From positions 1-12,049 of the forward strand of contig JABFSV010000538.1 of assembly GCA_013140405.1 (NCBI GenBank): a stretch of 12,049 nucleotides of DNA. The letters are read 5' to 3'. Origin of the DNA: Methyloglobulus sp. Its GTDB lineage: Bacteria > Pseudomonadota > Gammaproteobacteria > Methylococcales > Methylomonadaceae. Every line of letters begins with the position of its first letter. Position 1 is the first letter of the stretch. A model generated the notes under the pieces. That model searched no databases, was not told where the DNA came from, and worked only from the letters and a program-made list of their open reading frames with translations. Of the stretch, positions 3,581 through 12,049 are shown piece by piece. A program made the translations under genes and the position numbers.

Positions 3581-3621
3581 CAACGTTATGTTCGCTTAAT
3601 CCGTAATACAATTTTCAAATC

Positions 3622-3654
3622 TTTATTCAAAGCAGGCCGTCTGCTTTGAATAAA
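3622..3654 (+). terminator. Hairpin terminator after the MIF-like gene (14-bp perfect stem)
   Basis: TTTATTCAAAGCAG - GCCGT - CTGCTTTGAATAAA is a perfect 14-bp stem with a five-base loop, 41 bases after the MIF-like stop. The AAAGCAG...CTGCTTT core is typical of bidirectional terminators in which the U-run lies inside the stem, although no long T-run follows. It ends directly against the Pho box, so it would insulate that promoter from upstream transcription. Confidence 0.6.
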
Positions 3655-3710
3655 CTGTCACACAATCTTCAAATTACAGTCACCTCGTTGTCATATACAA
3701 GCCTTAATCT
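3655..3710 (+). promoter_or_regulatory. PhoB-type Pho box (four 11-bp half-sites) plus -10 element
   Basis: Four units start exactly 11 bases apart: CTGTCAC at 3655, TCTTCAA at 3666, CAGTCAC at 3677 and TTGTCAT at 3688. The known PhoB half-site is CTGTCAT repeated every 11 bases; matches are 6, 3, 5 and 6 of 7. Units 3 and 4 form an 18-base Pho box ending at 3694. Exactly 10 bases later comes TAATCT (3705-3710), the spacing seen between the Pho box and -10 element of E. coli phoA. No good -35 hexamer is present, as expected for a PhoB-activated promoter. The transcript would start near 3717 and carry the phosphatase and glycosyltransferase genes. The four-fold exact register makes chance unlikely; binding is untested. 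Confidence 0.75.
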
Positions 3711-3791
3711 TTACCCTGAAAGATAAAGCTTTTGGGTGTTGGGATTCGTAACATCGTAGTCCATCACCTGATTAATCCTTGGGAGGATGAG

Positions 3792-4313
3792 ATGAAACTG
3801 CTTTACGCGATCCATAAATATGATGTCTTTATGTTTTCCTGGCTCATTAATGCCAGTATCCACAACAGTTTGACAAGGATTTCTCGGTACGTGTCACGGA
3901 CTGGCGACGGGCAGTTGTATGTCCTGGTCATGGCGTTGCTATATTGGCACGAAGGTTTGCAGAACATGCCTTTGCAAGCCATTTTGTTGGCTTTTTCCCT
4001 CGAAAGGCCGCTCTATTTTGTCTTAAAAAATGGTTTCAGGCGTAATCGCCCCGAAGCGGCATTAAAAAACTTCCATAGCTTTATCAAGCCTTCGGACAAG
4101 TTCAGCTTTCCGTCAGGTCACACGTCCGCTGCGTTCATGATGGCGACTTTGCTGGGGCATTTTTTTCCAATTCTATTGATACCACTTTGCTGTTGGGCAG
4201 GATTGGTCGGCTTTTCCCGGGTAGCGTTGGGTGTGCATTTCCCCACTGATATTCTGGTTGGTTGTGTCATGGGTATTTCAATAGCACTGTTCAGCATAGG
4301 ACAAATCATTTAA
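3792..4313 (+). CDS. PAP2-family membrane phosphatase (PgpB/lipid phosphate phosphatase type)
   Basis: A 173-residue integral membrane protein with the full three-part PAP2 active site: K79-N-G-F-R-R-N-R86-P87 (KX6RP), P107-S-G-H110 and S142-R143-X5-H149-X3-D153. Hydrophobic helices lie around 40-51, 61-77, 111-131, 132-147 and 154-172. Enzymes of this class remove phosphate from phosphatidate, phosphatidylglycerol phosphate or undecaprenyl pyrophosphate at the membrane. The start was chosen at 3792 because GGGAGGA lies about five bases upstream; an in-frame ATG 60 bases earlier (3732) would add 20 residues that do not look conserved and has no ribosome site. It follows a Pho box by 81 bases and its stop TAA overlaps the next ATG (TAATG), so it is coupled to the glycosyltransferase. 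That pairing favours a lipid substrate; undecaprenyl pyrophosphate remains an alternative. Confidence 0.9.
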   Translation: MKLLYAIHKYDVFMFSWLINASIHNSLTRISRYVSRTGDGQLYVLVMALLYWHEGLQNMPLQAILLAFSLERPLYFVLKNGFRRNRPEAALKNFHSFIKPSDKFSFPSGHTSAAFMMATLLGHFFPILLIPLCCWAGLVGFSRVALGVHFPTDILVGCVMGISIALFSIGQII

Positions 4314-5353
4314 TGCGGATATTTTACGGCGTTCAAGGAACTGGCAACGGACACATCACCCGCGCCAGGGTGATGGCAAAAGAACTTTATAAGGCGGGCA
4401 TTGAGGTTGACTTCCAATTTACCGGACGTGCCTTCGACAAATATTTTGACATGACTGTATTTAATGGTTACCAATTACGGCAAGGCTTAACGTTTGCCGT
4501 TGAAAATGGCCAAGTCAACTATCTGAAAACACTGCTAACTTCCAAGCCCATTACGTTTGCCAAAGACGTAAAACGGCTCGACTTAACGAATTATGATCTG
4601 GTCATCAGCGATTTTGAACCCGTGACGGCCTGGGCAGCAAAAGCCCAAGGTGTGCCTGTTTTAGGTTTGGGGCATCAGTACGCATTCAAACATAAGATCC
4701 CCAGAGAAGGTTCTGATCCACTGGCTGAGTTGGTCATGAAACTCTATGCGCCAGCAGACATCGGCATAGGTTTGCATTGGCATCATTTTGGGCAACCCGT
4801 GTTGCCGCCTATTATCGAAACATATGAAGGATCAACATCTGCCATAAAAAACAAGATTATTGTGTATCTTCCCTTTGAAGACACCAATACGGTGATTTCG
4901 CATTTGTCGCCGTTTAATAATTTTGAGTTCCACATCTATACCCCAGAAGTCGTGCAATCCGAACATGATTTTATTACCTGCAAGCCGTTGTCGCGGGAAG
5001 GTTTTCAGAAAGACCTTATTGATTGTGCAGGCATCATCAGCAATGCCGGATTCGAACTTGCTAGTGAAGCGCTACAAATGGGTAAAAAAATTCTGGCAAA
5101 GCCACTACATGCCCAAATGGAACAAATCTCGAATGCAGCAGCATTACAACAGCTTGGCTATGGACATATTATGTATGACATGGACACAAAAATGATTGGA
5201 CACTGGCTGCACAATGCCCATGCCGTGCAAATTACTTACCCTAACACGGCAAAGATATTGGTTGAATGGCTACAGGACGGTATGCAAGAGATGACCACCG
5301 ATTATGTGGAAAATATCTGGAATACCGTGGATATAAAGCATATCCGTAACTAA
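4313..5353 (+). CDS. GT-B glycosyltransferase, MJ1255/VC2487-like family
   Basis: 346 residues, cytoplasmic or peripheral membrane. The N-terminal Rossmann half opens with MRIFYGVQGTGNGHITRA, where Q8-G-T-G-N-G-H14 is the glycine-rich acceptor-side loop of MurG-like and UGT-like enzymes. The C-terminal half has the nucleotide-sugar signature ISNAGFELASEAL (about 242-254), followed by KPLHAQMEQISNA (about 263-275) with the conserved His, Gln and Glu. This matches the archaeal and bacterial family I know as MJ1255/VC2487 (Glyco_trans_1_3); its substrate is not established to my knowledge. The start is the ATG overlapping the phosphatase stop; an earlier in-frame ATG at 4262 lies inside the phosphatase gene and would add 17 residues ahead of the conserved N-terminus. 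Given the Pho box and the coupled PAP2 gene, glycosylation of diacylglycerol to a glycolipid is a reasonable hypothesis. Confidence 0.85.
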   Translation: MRIFYGVQGTGNGHITRARVMAKELYKAGIEVDFQFTGRAFDKYFDMTVFNGYQLRQGLTFAVENGQVNYLKTLLTSKPITFAKDVKRLDLTNYDLVISDFEPVTAWAAKAQGVPVLGLGHQYAFKHKIPREGSDPLAELVMKLYAPADIGIGLHWHHFGQPVLPPIIETYEGSTSAIKNKIIVYLPFEDTNTVISHLSPFNNFEFHIYTPEVVQSEHDFITCKPLSREGFQKDLIDCAGIISNAGFELASEALQMGKKILAKPLHAQMEQISNAAALQQLGYGHIMYDMDTKMIGHWLHNAHAVQITYPNTAKILVEWLQDGMQEMTTDYVENIWNTVDIKHIRN

Positions 5354-8669: not shown

Positions 8670-11600
8670 ATGGCTAACCTCTACCGTAGTTGGTTAAAAA
8701 ACTGGTGGTATATCGCCCTAACCGCCCTGTTGTTTTATGTGGCGGGCCGATTAACGTTCCCTTTAGCATGGTCTCAGAGCTACGCTGGCGCAGTTTGGCC
8801 GCCTGCGGGTATCGGGCTGGGTGCCGTGTTGTTATGGGGCCACGCAGCGCTACCGGGCATCTACCTGGCTGATTTGTTGCTTCATTATGAAATGTTCCAC
8901 CTATCAGATGCGCCTGGCAAACAACTTATTTTCTTCCTCAGCCCCCTTAGCAATGTCCTAAGATCCTGGTTAGGCTGCGTCCTCGTCAAACGGTATGCCG
9001 GTTTTCCTAACCCGCTTGTGTCCACACGGTCAACCTTACTGTTCTTTTTGTTTGCTGGCCCTGTAGCGACTTTTGTTTCAACTGTATTTAGCGTCATTGG
9101 CTTATTTTTAATGGGCATCATTACCGAATCCGACATCCTATTCACTTTTGTGACTTGGTGGTCAGGGGACTGCTCAGGGATTGCTATTTTTACGCCATTA
9201 TTTTTTATAGCCTTTAATAAATCCCACCGAATCTGGCGGCAACGTTTGTTTTCTCTAGGCGTACCCTTGACCGCTATTTTTATGGCCGTCGCAATGGGTT
9301 ATTTATATGCCCAGAGCAAGGAACTTGGACGGTTACATAAACTCATCGGCAATCAAACAGAATCGGTTAAAGAAGCACTACTTGATGAGTTTACGGTCCA
9401 TTTATCTGCTTTGACCCGTCTCAAGGAGGTGGTTGCCCTTAATACATTTAACGAAACCTATTTTCGTTTTAACGCACAAACGAGCTTAAAACAACATCCT
9501 GATCTGGTGCAAATTGAATGGTTAAAAGCCATAAAAGTTAACCAAGGTTACCGTTTCGTCAGACAATTTTCTGAAACCAAAACCAATAACTATTCAGTTG
9601 ATTTTGACTCGATTCCTGAATTACTCAGCACGCTGGACACCGCCCAGAATAGTGTCACCTTGTTGGGTAAACAACACTATATGATTGCTGTACCAAGCCT
9701 AGAAACCGGCCCTGATAGCTGTGAATGTATGAAGGGAATGGTGGTTGGGATTTTCGATATTAATGCCTTTTTATATGATGCAATGCACAGGGGCGATTAC
9801 AAGCATATTGTTGTCAAATTGACAGATAATGTCAGTAAGCCCAAGTTTGAATCTATTTTTGGGATGAATGATGACAATGCAATACTAGATATTCTCGGCC
9901 TTGCCAAGCTGGAAACCATTCGTTTTGGCAACCAACACTGGTTTCTGCAAATTACACCCAAGAATAATTTCCTGACTGAAAATTATTCTTGGTCACCCTG
10001 GCAACTATTGGTCGGCGGGATGTTTCTCACGGGGTTTATGAGTATCGGATTACTGGTGTTGACGGGTCATACTGAACTCGTTGCCACCCAGGTTGATAAA
10101 CGTACGCTGGAACTTAAGCGCAGCAACCTCAAATTGGCAGGGCGGGAACAGCAATTTAGAAAACTGGTGCAAACCCAATCGGCGATTGTCTGGCGTGCAG
10201 ATCCGGTAACGTTCAGGTTCGTTTTTGTCAGCGCCGAAGCGGTTAGCATCCTGGGTTATCCCGTTAAGCGATGGCTGGATGAACCTGATTTTTGGCAAAA
10301 GCACATCCATGCAGATGATAAGGAAACTGTCTTGAATGCTTGTGCACAAGGCAGTATCAGTTCGAAAAACCACAGCCACGACCTGGAATACCGGATGATT
10401 GCAGCAGATGGCCATATCGTTTGGTTGCGTGATATCGCCACTTTAGTTGTTGAAGCTGGTGTGATAACCGAGCTGTATGGTTTTATGATGGACATTACCA
10501 AGCAAAAGCATTCGGAAGAGCAACTACGTCTGGCAGCCAATACCTTTGAGACCCAACAGGGCATCATGATTACCGATAAAGATGCCAAAATTTTGCGGGT
10601 CAACAAAGCGTTTACGCAAATCACCGGTTTTTCAGCACCGCTAGTTATTGGTGAAAACCCCAGGTTTTTGAAATCTGGGCGGCATGACCAGGCGTTTTTT
10701 CAAGACTATTGGAATCAACTGTTAACCAACGATAAATTTGAAGGTGAAATCTGGAATCGCCGAAAGAGCGGTGAGATTTACCCTGAATGGCAAACCGTTA
10801 CCGCAGTCAGAAATGAACTGGGCGAAATCAGCCATTTTGTATCTGTATTTTCAGACATTACCGAGAAAAAAGATGCGGAAAACAAGATACATAGCATGGC
10901 TTTTTACGACCCTCTGACCAACCTCCCTAACCGGCGATTATTGTTGGATAGGTTTGACCAGGAAATGGCCATCGCCAAACGGCATAAACAATATGGGGCG
11001 GTGTTATATCTTGATTTGGATCACTTTAAAATTTTGAATGATTCACAAGGACATCTAGTCGGTGATGAATTATTGATACAAGTGGCGGAACGCCTGTCGT
11101 CAGTGCTTAGGGAAGAAGACACCCCAGCTCGATTGGGCGGAGATGAATTTGTGGTTTTATTGCATGCAAATTCGGAAACATTGTCGGCGGCGGCCGACCA
11201 AGCAATGGTGGTCGCTGAAAAGATCAGGGAAAAAATAAATACACCGTTTATATTGAACCAATATCAACATCAGATAGGCACCAGTATCGGCATCACACTT
11301 TTCCCTGAAAATCAGGAAAATCCCGATGCCGTATTGCAACAGGCGGATACGGCGATGTACCGATCTAAATCCAGTGGACGGAATACCATTAACTTTTTCC
11401 AACCCAGTATGCAAGAAGCCGCCGATTTGCGTTTAAGCCTGGAAAATGACCTAAGAGGGGCTATCGCGCAGGGACGATTTATCCTGTGTTACCACCCACA
11501 AATGGATGTAGACGGTAATATGGTTGGCGCTGAAGCCTTAATACGTTGGGAAGACAAGATAAAAGGTAGGCTGTCGCCAGCGGACTTTATCCCTGTTGCC

Positions 11601-12049
11601 GAAGAAAGCAACCTTATCCTGAGCATCGGCAAATGGGTCCTGATGGAGGCTTGCAGTCAAATCAAGATGTGGCAAGATGCCGGCCTTGTTAACTTACCTT
11701 ATGTATCAATTAATGTAAGTTCCCGTCAATTCAGGCAACAGGACTTCATTAGCCAAGTCAGGTACGCCATTGAAACCACCGGTATAGCGCCTTCTAGCTT
11801 AGGTATTGAATTGACCGAAAGCGTAATGATTGTCGATATTGAAGACACCGTTGATAAAATGAAAGCCCTAAAAGCGCTGGGCGTATCAATTGCGGTTGAC
11901 GACTTCGGTACGGGTTATTCCTCTTTGGTTTATCTGAAACAGTTACCGCTTGATGTGTTAAAAATAGACAGGGGGTTTGTTCGGGACATCTTGAGCGATT
12001 CCAGCGATGCCGTCATTGTAGAAACCATCATCAGCATGGCAAAACATTT
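8670..12049 (+). CDS. MASE1-CHASE-PAS-PAS-GGDEF-EAL cyclic-di-GMP enzyme (partial, 3' end off window)
   Basis: 1126 residues are visible. Domains in order: a MASE1-like multi-helix membrane sensor (about 10-215; W43-PPAG and the TWWSGDCSG segment near 160-168), a CHASE-like extracytoplasmic domain (about 225-430), a transmembrane helix (about 444-466), PAS/PAC 1 (about 491-610), PAS/PAC 2 (about 618-738), GGDEF (from M743) and EAL (from about 925). The cyclase site is intact, G823-G-D-E-F827, with RxxD (REED) nine residues ahead, as in the product-inhibition I-site. The EAL half keeps E955-A-L, PVAEESNLI, NVSSRQF, ELTES, DDFGTGYSS and LKID, so phosphodiesterase activity is also plausible. It makes and/or degrades c-di-GMP at the inner membrane. 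The start is the first ATG after an in-frame TGA at 8652; no strong Shine-Dalgarno sequence is visible. The signal sensed is unknown. Only the EAL end is missing. Confidence 0.93.
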   Translation, partial: MANLYRSWLKNWWYIALTALLFYVAGRLTFPLAWSQSYAGAVWPPAGIGLGAVLLWGHAALPGIYLADLLLHYEMFHLSDAPGKQLIFFLSPLSNVLRSWLGCVLVKRYAGFPNPLVSTRSTLLFFLFAGPVATFVSTVFSVIGLFLMGIITESDILFTFVTWWSGDCSGIAIFTPLFFIAFNKSHRIWRQRLFSLGVPLTAIFMAVAMGYLYAQSKELGRLHKLIGNQTESVKEALLDEFTVHLSALTRLKEVVALNTFNETYFRFNAQTSLKQHPDLVQIEWLKAIKVNQGYRFVRQFSETKTNNYSVDFDSIPELLSTLDTAQNSVTLLGKQHYMIAVPSLETGPDSCECMKGMVVGIFDINAFLYDAMHRGDYKHIVVKLTDNVSKPKFESIFGMNDDNAILDILGLAKLETIRFGNQHWFLQITPKNNFLTENYSWSPWQLLVGGMFLTGFMSIGLLVLTGHTELVATQVDKRTLELKRSNLKLAGREQQFRKLVQTQSAIVWRADPVTFRFVFVSAEAVSILGYPVKRWLDEPDFWQKHIHADDKETVLNACAQGSISSKNHSHDLEYRMIAADGHIVWLRDIATLVVEAGVITELYGFMMDITKQKHSEEQLRLAANTFETQQGIMITDKDAKILRVNKAFTQITGFSAPLVIGENPRFLKSGRHDQAFFQDYWNQLLTNDKFEGEIWNRRKSGEIYPEWQTVTAVRNELGEISHFVSVFSDITEKKDAENKIHSMAFYDPLTNLPNRRLLLDRFDQEMAIAKRHKQYGAVLYLDLDHFKILNDSQGHLVGDELLIQVAERLSSVLREEDTPARLGGDEFVVLLHANSETLSAAADQAMVVAEKIREKINTPFILNQYQHQIGTSIGITLFPENQENPDAVLQQADTAMYRSKSSGRNTINFFQPSMQEAADLRLSLENDLRGAIAQGRFILCYHPQMDVDGNMVGAEALIRWEDKIKGRLSPADFIPVAEESNLILSIGKWVLMEACSQIKMWQDAGLVNLPYVSINVSSRQFRQQDFISQVRYAIETTGIAPSSLGIELTESVMIVDIEDTVDKMKALKALGVSIAVDDFGTGYSSLVYLKQLPLDVLKIDRGFVRDILSDSSDAVIVETIISMAKH

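Follow-up and report, generated by a model that had tools for sequence, protein, structure and literature searches.

The locus analyzed here raises the question of whether a PAP2-type phosphatase and a glycosyltransferase encoded back to back are under phosphate control and, if so, what the two enzymes may produce. The pair lies within a stretch of 12,049 nucleotides (hereafter the window), which corresponds to contig C260 in a draft assembly of 545 contigs (90.6% complete, 5.0% contamination) from Methyloglobulus sp., a methane-oxidising bacterium. A first-pass annotation had proposed a phosphate-starvation promoter driving a candidate lipid remodelling module. In the open-licence literature, we recognized neither a description of a PAP2-glycosyltransferase Pho operon nor an activity for any MJ1255/VC2487 glycosyltransferase.

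Three further genes of the window are mentioned for completeness. On the reverse strand, positions 3-1652 encode a multicopper-oxidase-like protein truncated by the contig end, which resembles the manganese oxidase MnxG (326.8 bits, far under the cut-off of 3100) and for which no Pfam match was found at 0.001. On the forward strand, a MIF-type tautomerase (PF01187, 3233-3580) ends ahead of the promoter described below and occupies the same position in a same-genus genome (G006, L064); after it, an inverted repeat with perfectly matching 11-bp arms (3625-3635 and 3641-3651) was seen by eye. Finally, a large membrane protein with PAS, GGDEF and EAL-type sequences recognized by eye (8670-12047, forward strand) is open at the contig end.

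A double Pho box precedes the PAP2 gene

A double Pho box occupies positions 3655..3698 of the forward strand, with half-sites CTGTCACACAA (3655), TCTTCAAATTA (3666), CAGTCACCTCG (3677) and TTGTCATATAC (3688) in the exact 11-bp register that the first-pass annotation had described. A -10 element (TAATCT, 3705..3710, same strand) lies 10 nt after the last TTGTCAT. The half-sites were scored with a matrix built from 17 pstS boxes of related genomes, picked by eye among 28 pstS loci; since pstS boxes alone were used, no PAP2 promoter went into it. The scores were, in order, 7.8, -2.3, -1.2 and 14.8, that is, two strong outer and two weak middle half-sites. When both strands of the window were scanned for four-site blocks, position 3655 scored best (19.0), the runner-up (2.9) being that block displaced by 11 bp. 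None of 10,000 first-order resamplings of positions 3581-3791 reached 19.0 (maximum 4.3).

In E. coli K-12 phoA and pstS, with the -10 elements at the positions that we presume for them, 10 nt likewise separate the last TGTCA(C/T) from the -10 element. The pstS gene of the host itself (G000:C250, L220) reads TTGTCATATTT CTGTCATAAAA, and its -10 element stands in the same register as that of the window promoter. The phoA-like geometry claimed earlier is therefore upheld, the same 10-nt spacing being found in E. coli phoA, E. coli pstS and the host pstS. E. coli phoA has two half-sites and E. coli pstS has four in 11-bp register; the window promoter is accordingly of the pstS type, although its two middle half-sites are weaker than those of E. 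coli. Both features by which a Pho-regulon promoter is recognized, TGTCA-type direct repeats at 11 bp and a -10 element some 10 nt downstream, are present. A generic sigma-70 scan of the window did not report a promoter at 3655-3710, as is expected where an activator replaces the -35 element. A GGGAGG motif was seen by eye ahead of the PAP2 start.

The host genome carries PhoB and PhoR, both scoring above their cut-offs, and has Pho boxes at pstS and phoB as well: the seven exact matches to TGTCA-N6-TGTCA in the genome include one shortly ahead of pstS (C250) and one shortly ahead of phoB (C488). By itself, the two-half-site pattern is unspecific in this genome (177 matches with at most one mismatch, compared to 102 for the reversed control).

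The Pho box is conserved upstream of PAP2

The first-pass annotation had suggested looking for PhoB sites upstream of such pairs in related genomes. The 11-bp repeats are conserved in related loci: the four-site block precedes PAP2 in 26 of 30 loci, the window's own included, and the four loci lacking the block (L017, L018, L029 and L030) all lack PAP2 upstream. The pstS-trained matrix was applied to 44 non-methanotroph loci that contain PAP2 (Marinomonas, Shewanella, Vibrio, Alteromonas, Marinobacterium, Neptuniibacter and others), where the PAP2 upstream regions scored far above 345 upstream regions of other open reading frames at the same loci (Mann-Whitney p 8.8e-22, which is too small a value, since related genomes are not independent). 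Thirty-six of the 44 exceeded 95% of the controls and the other eight fell below that level, including L158 and L191, which scored no better than controls. Scores on the opposite strand of the 44 regions were not raised. The spread of the Pho box over families is a stronger point than the p value.

Phosphate-related genes are found near the pair in several genomes. In G022, it comes immediately after a pstA-pstB-phoU set (pstA by eye); pstS follows the glycosyltransferase after 0.8 kb in G023, 2.6 kb in G003 and 5.7 kb in G001. In G005, the glycosyltransferase is flanked by a divergent plcP on one side and by phoR and phoB on the other, and at L158 the order PAP2-glycosyltransferase-DgkA is followed by phoB. 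As a side observation, the glycosyltransferase gene of the close relative G003 (L061, with pstS 2.6 kb beyond) contains two in-frame stops, and its PAP2 motifs are intact.

Taken together, the phosphate-starvation control proposed earlier is strongly supported by the conservation of the block in relatives and in other proteobacteria and by the presence of PhoB, PhoR and the pstS and phoB Pho boxes in the host genome. That PhoB controls the conserved PAP2-glycosyltransferase pair, a prediction from sequence, appears nearly certain.

The promoter is followed by a complete PAP2 phosphatase and an MJ1255/VC2487-type glycosyltransferase

The first gene (3792..4313, forward strand) encodes a PAP2-type lipid phosphatase of 173 aa, which is complete as anticipated: PF01569 matches with 84 bits (cut-off 27.2) and the catalytic motifs KX6RP, PSGH and SRX5HX3D are intact. 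The top NCBIfam match, the undecaprenyl-diphosphatase SepP (NF047884), remains below its cut-off (57.8 vs 250 bits), and membership in that family is not indicated. The nearest solved structure is Aquifex LpxE, the substrates of which are Kdo2-lipid A, C55-PP and PGP. The protein shares its fold (TM 0.79 and 0.75, respectively) and catalytic motifs with the PAP2 phosphatases LpxE and YodM, but is only 26-30% identical to them in structural alignment, and its gene partner points to another substrate. The resemblance to the lipid A 1-phosphatase LpxE is one of fold and sequence.

The second gene (4313..5353, forward strand) encodes a complete GT-B glycosyltransferase of 346 aa, the start of which overlaps the PAP2 stop within TAATG (4311-4315), as noted before. 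Its earlier assignment to the MJ1255/VC2487 type is borne out by TIGR00661 (239 bits, curated cut-off 195.9), and PF13528 matches as well. In a fold search, MurG, UGT and natural-product enzymes tied, GT-B enzymes with very different acceptors, and no diacylglycerol glycosyltransferase was among the 50 matches listed. When solved structures were searched by sequence, the best match and sole near-threshold relative was MurG (E 0.055).

The pair recurs in many taxa

The glycosyltransferase is present in 41 of 61 relatives and in 33 of 37 genomes of the window's own family. Across the class it is rare, with matches in 15 of 369 genomes, 10 of them strong (E < 1e-40). We analyzed 41 related loci, namely 40 from relatives, two of which come from G032, plus the window; G002, which holds a partial copy at the edge of a contig, was excluded. 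In 34 of these 41, a PAP2 gene with the strict motif abuts or overlaps the glycosyltransferase gene (end at most 8 bases from its start); L094 has a further PAP2 beside the glycosyltransferase with the variant motif AR for SR. Among named loci (the best 80 of at least 585 matches), PAP2 was found upstream by motif in 65. Methylomonas methanica and Methylovulum miyakonense, two cultured relatives, carry both the pair and the Pho box.

After four duplicates and one locus cut by a contig end were dropped, 116 distinct loci remained, of which 96 have PAP2 and 20 have the glycosyltransferase without it; ten have neither PAP2 nor PlcP nearby. The pair is common to many taxa, which the first-pass annotation had not foreseen. 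Around the glycosyltransferase in relatives, open frames as long as 574 aa resembled PAP2-glycosyltransferase fusions; those checked proved to be read out of frame across a separate PAP2 gene.

PlcP-type and diacylglycerol kinase genes recur beside the glycosyltransferase

We use PlcP-type for metallophosphoesterases of the kind preceding a GT4 in Methylococcaceae-like genomes, named by homology and neighbourhood; that arrangement matches the plcP-agt pair of type Ib methanotrophs as given in the available passages of PMC9239053. These proteins fall into two groups, about 50-73% and 42-50% identical to the L063 protein, and all agt-linked genes inspected belong to the former; two members score 42 and 59 bits to the LpxH model (cut-off 134).

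A PlcP-type gene lies within 4 kb of the glycosyltransferase in 21 of the 116 loci. Four arrangements relative to the glycosyltransferase occur (upstream, downstream, divergent and convergent), which suggests that the two genes were probably joined more than once. Among the relatives, 37 possess both genes (the glycosyltransferase of G002 being a fragment), and in 13 of these the two are no more than 4 kb apart; under assumed sizes for genome and interval, and with phylogeny left aside, random placement would give about 0.1. PlcP is found in 10 of the 20 loci without PAP2, versus 11 of the 96 with it (Fisher p 2.9e-4, phylogeny-blind). On the glycosyltransferase tree, exchange of PAP2 for PlcP had the right direction but was not significant (sign test, median p 0.5), the eight independent pairs available giving the test no power. 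At L161, PlcP sits in the place of PAP2, and in LSUCC0057 (L205) the order is PAP2-glycosyltransferase-PlcP.

The Nitrosomonas-like loci L149, L150, L155 and L156 carry, in a row, PlcP, a patatin-like phospholipase, the glycosyltransferase and a diacylglycerol-kinase-like gene. We note that this phospholipase resembles a CBASS lipase model, below its cut-off. DgkA- or YegS-type diacylglycerol kinases are found near 13 of 117 loci, and the DgkA reaction is the reverse of that of PAP2. A DgkA-type gene was observed directly 3' of the glycosyltransferase on the same strand at L020 / L066 (G008), L094, L158, L159 and L160. A separate observation, made by eye at L069 / L018 (G012), is a glycosyltransferase without PAP2, flanked by a phospholipase C/phosphoesterase-like gene and, on the other side, by an acyltransferase-like gene accompanied by a divergent PlcP.

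In the window, no PlcP lies beside the pair, and none was matched in the 90.6% complete host draft, nor in G003 and G011 (incomplete) or G015, G025 and G036 (96-99% complete). These absences run counter to the statement in the passages of PMC9239053 at hand that plcP is ubiquitous in proteobacterial methanotrophs.

Relation to the PlcP-Agt route

PlcP-Agt remodelling, as described for Methylosinus trichosporium OB3b and Pseudomonas aeruginosa in the accessible parts of PMC9239053 and PMC8528852, similarly combines Pho-box control with a phospholipid-processing enzyme and a glycosyltransferase, and, as indicated above, PlcP-type genes share the neighbourhood of the window-type glycosyltransferase. 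In contrast, the window encodes a PAP2 phosphatase rather than a PlcP metallophosphoesterase, and its glycosyltransferase belongs to PF13528/TIGR00661 rather than to the GT4 family of Agt. A close Agt-like GT4 (E < 1e-100) is found in 15 of the 37 family genomes, including the host (G000:C170:2539-3540, L253; 54% identity to the Methylococcaceae-type protein, unlinked to the pair). Eighteen of the 37 have the glycosyltransferase of the PAP2-associated type and no close Agt, and four have neither. Scores of 13 agt upstream regions with the pstS-trained matrix vary: several regions show no such site, that of the host contains a moderate pair (7.8), and the agt of G016 (L263), about 1.5 kb from PAP2 and divergent, has a strong four-site box (20.2). 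Judging from these counts and upstream regions, the pair may supplement Agt in the host and replace it elsewhere. Given the Agt-like gene of the host, which the first-pass annotation had not foreseen, "alternative" in its suggestion of an alternative lipid route may mean "additional".

Published lipid data, as far as the available portions of the sources go, bear on this point in several ways. Type Ia methanotrophs are described as having no agt beside plcP, and a plcP-agt mutant of OB3b as retaining MGDG synthesis (PMC9239053). For Crenothrix and Methylobacter tundripaludum, the same source mentions "another putative DAG glycosyltransferase" close to plcP. This may be the window-type family, being from the same methanotroph group and likewise near plcP, but the portions available name no family, PAP2 partner or Pho box; at our Crenothrix locus (L148), no PlcP was found within the stretch examined. 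In P. aeruginosa, Pho boxes are reported at agt1 and agt2, and a plcP mutant keeps some GADG made from another diacylglycerol source (PMC8528852). Diacylglycerol may originate from phosphatidate or through a phospholipase C according to PMC4796936. A glycolipid gene of Desulfovibrio alaskensis is described as an Agt homologue in the corresponding portion of PMC5193443.

For V. cholerae at low phosphate, the accessible text of PMC13157583 reports about 90% ornithine lipid as the replacement; lipids were identified there via phospholipid and ornithine-lipid databases, so that glycolipids may have fallen outside the search. ChiS is reported to bind upstream of VC2487 (PMC11856585, accessible text). 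These two papers caution against extending a lipid function to V. cholerae.

Proposed function and alternative explanations

These results suggest a model in which, when phosphate is scarce, phosphorylated PhoB would bind the double Pho box and start transcription, a step well supported by the sequence. PAP2 would then dephosphorylate phosphatidic acid or a related lipid phosphate, freeing phosphate and leaving diacylglycerol, to which the GT-B enzyme may transfer a sugar from a nucleotide sugar, giving a phosphorus-free glycolipid. PAP2 would thereby stand for PlcP, and the glycosyltransferase for Agt (GT4); there are also genomes in which PlcP is the partner of this glycosyltransferase or adjoins the PAP2-glycosyltransferase pair. 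We consider it probable that the two-gene, PhoB-controlled operon serves to form diacylglycerol and attach a sugar to it, in the manner of PlcP-Agt but with other enzymes. This lipid chemistry is fairly likely on the strength of gene context, and a diacylglycerol glycolipid as the product is the best reading of the repeated gene neighbourhoods, one that we hold with reasonable confidence. The earlier lipid remodelling proposal draws its support from gene context: PlcP, diacylglycerol kinase, pst-phoU and phoBR genes are repeatedly found next to the glycosyltransferase, and loci without PAP2 have PlcP more often, but the exchange of PAP2 for PlcP lacks significance on the tree. Against the lipid function stand LpxE as the structure nearest to PAP2, the tied glycosyltransferase folds, the Agt-like GT4 of the host, the ornithine lipid of V. 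cholerae and ChiS binding upstream of VC2487.

Several of these points could instead reflect Pho-controlled envelope recycling, in which PAP2 would dephosphorylate undecaprenyl diphosphate or lipid A and an undecaprenyl-linked or other envelope glycan would be built by the glycosyltransferase at low phosphate. We regard this as unlikely: although SepP is the best, sub-cut-off NCBIfam match, LpxE with its lipid A, C55-PP and PGP substrates the nearest PAP2 structure and MurG the sole near-threshold glycosyltransferase relative, it is PlcP and diacylglycerol kinases that recur beside the glycosyltransferase. By eye, the neighbour clusters of the 117 loci contain no recurrent O-antigen or peptidoglycan set, and sugar-nucleotide genes are next door at one locus (L082).

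It also seems improbable that the two genes share regulation only, with PAP2 engaged in PG synthesis or in releasing phosphate, and with another lipid or a small molecule as the acceptor of the glycosyltransferase. The tie between GT-B folds with very different acceptors and the 20 loci without PAP2 would fit such a division, but the genes abut or overlap in 34 of 41 related loci, and half of the PAP2-less loci have PlcP, another phospholipid-cleaving enzyme, nearby. A chance Pho box at a pair without phosphate control is highly improbable, for although one-mismatch half-site pairs are common in the host genome, no resampling reached the observed score, the box is conserved and scores highly in other taxa with the pstS-trained matrix, and its -10 register is identical to that of the host pstS.

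Implications

Returning to the formation of a diacylglycerol glycolipid by the pair, we lean slightly towards the broader proposal that a second glycolipid pathway for phosphate starvation is common to several proteobacterial orders, its enzymes being non-homologous to PlcP and Agt. Switched on by PhoB, PAP2 would divert new phosphatidic acid to diacylglycerol, an MJ1255/VC2487-type diacylglycerol glycosyltransferase would make the replacement lipid, and PlcP and PAP2 would be exchangeable suppliers. If true, this would assign a function to the bacterial MJ1255/VC2487 glycosyltransferases and bear on gaps stated in the literature, namely the type Ia methanotrophs without agt beside plcP and the MGDG of the OB3b mutant (PMC9239053) as well as the GADG of the P. 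aeruginosa mutant (PMC8528852). Surveys of phosphate-saving bacteria based on plcP only would miss genomes with the PAP2-glycosyltransferase pair alone. The same pair and switch recur in other bacteria and represent a little-noticed candidate way of saving phosphate.
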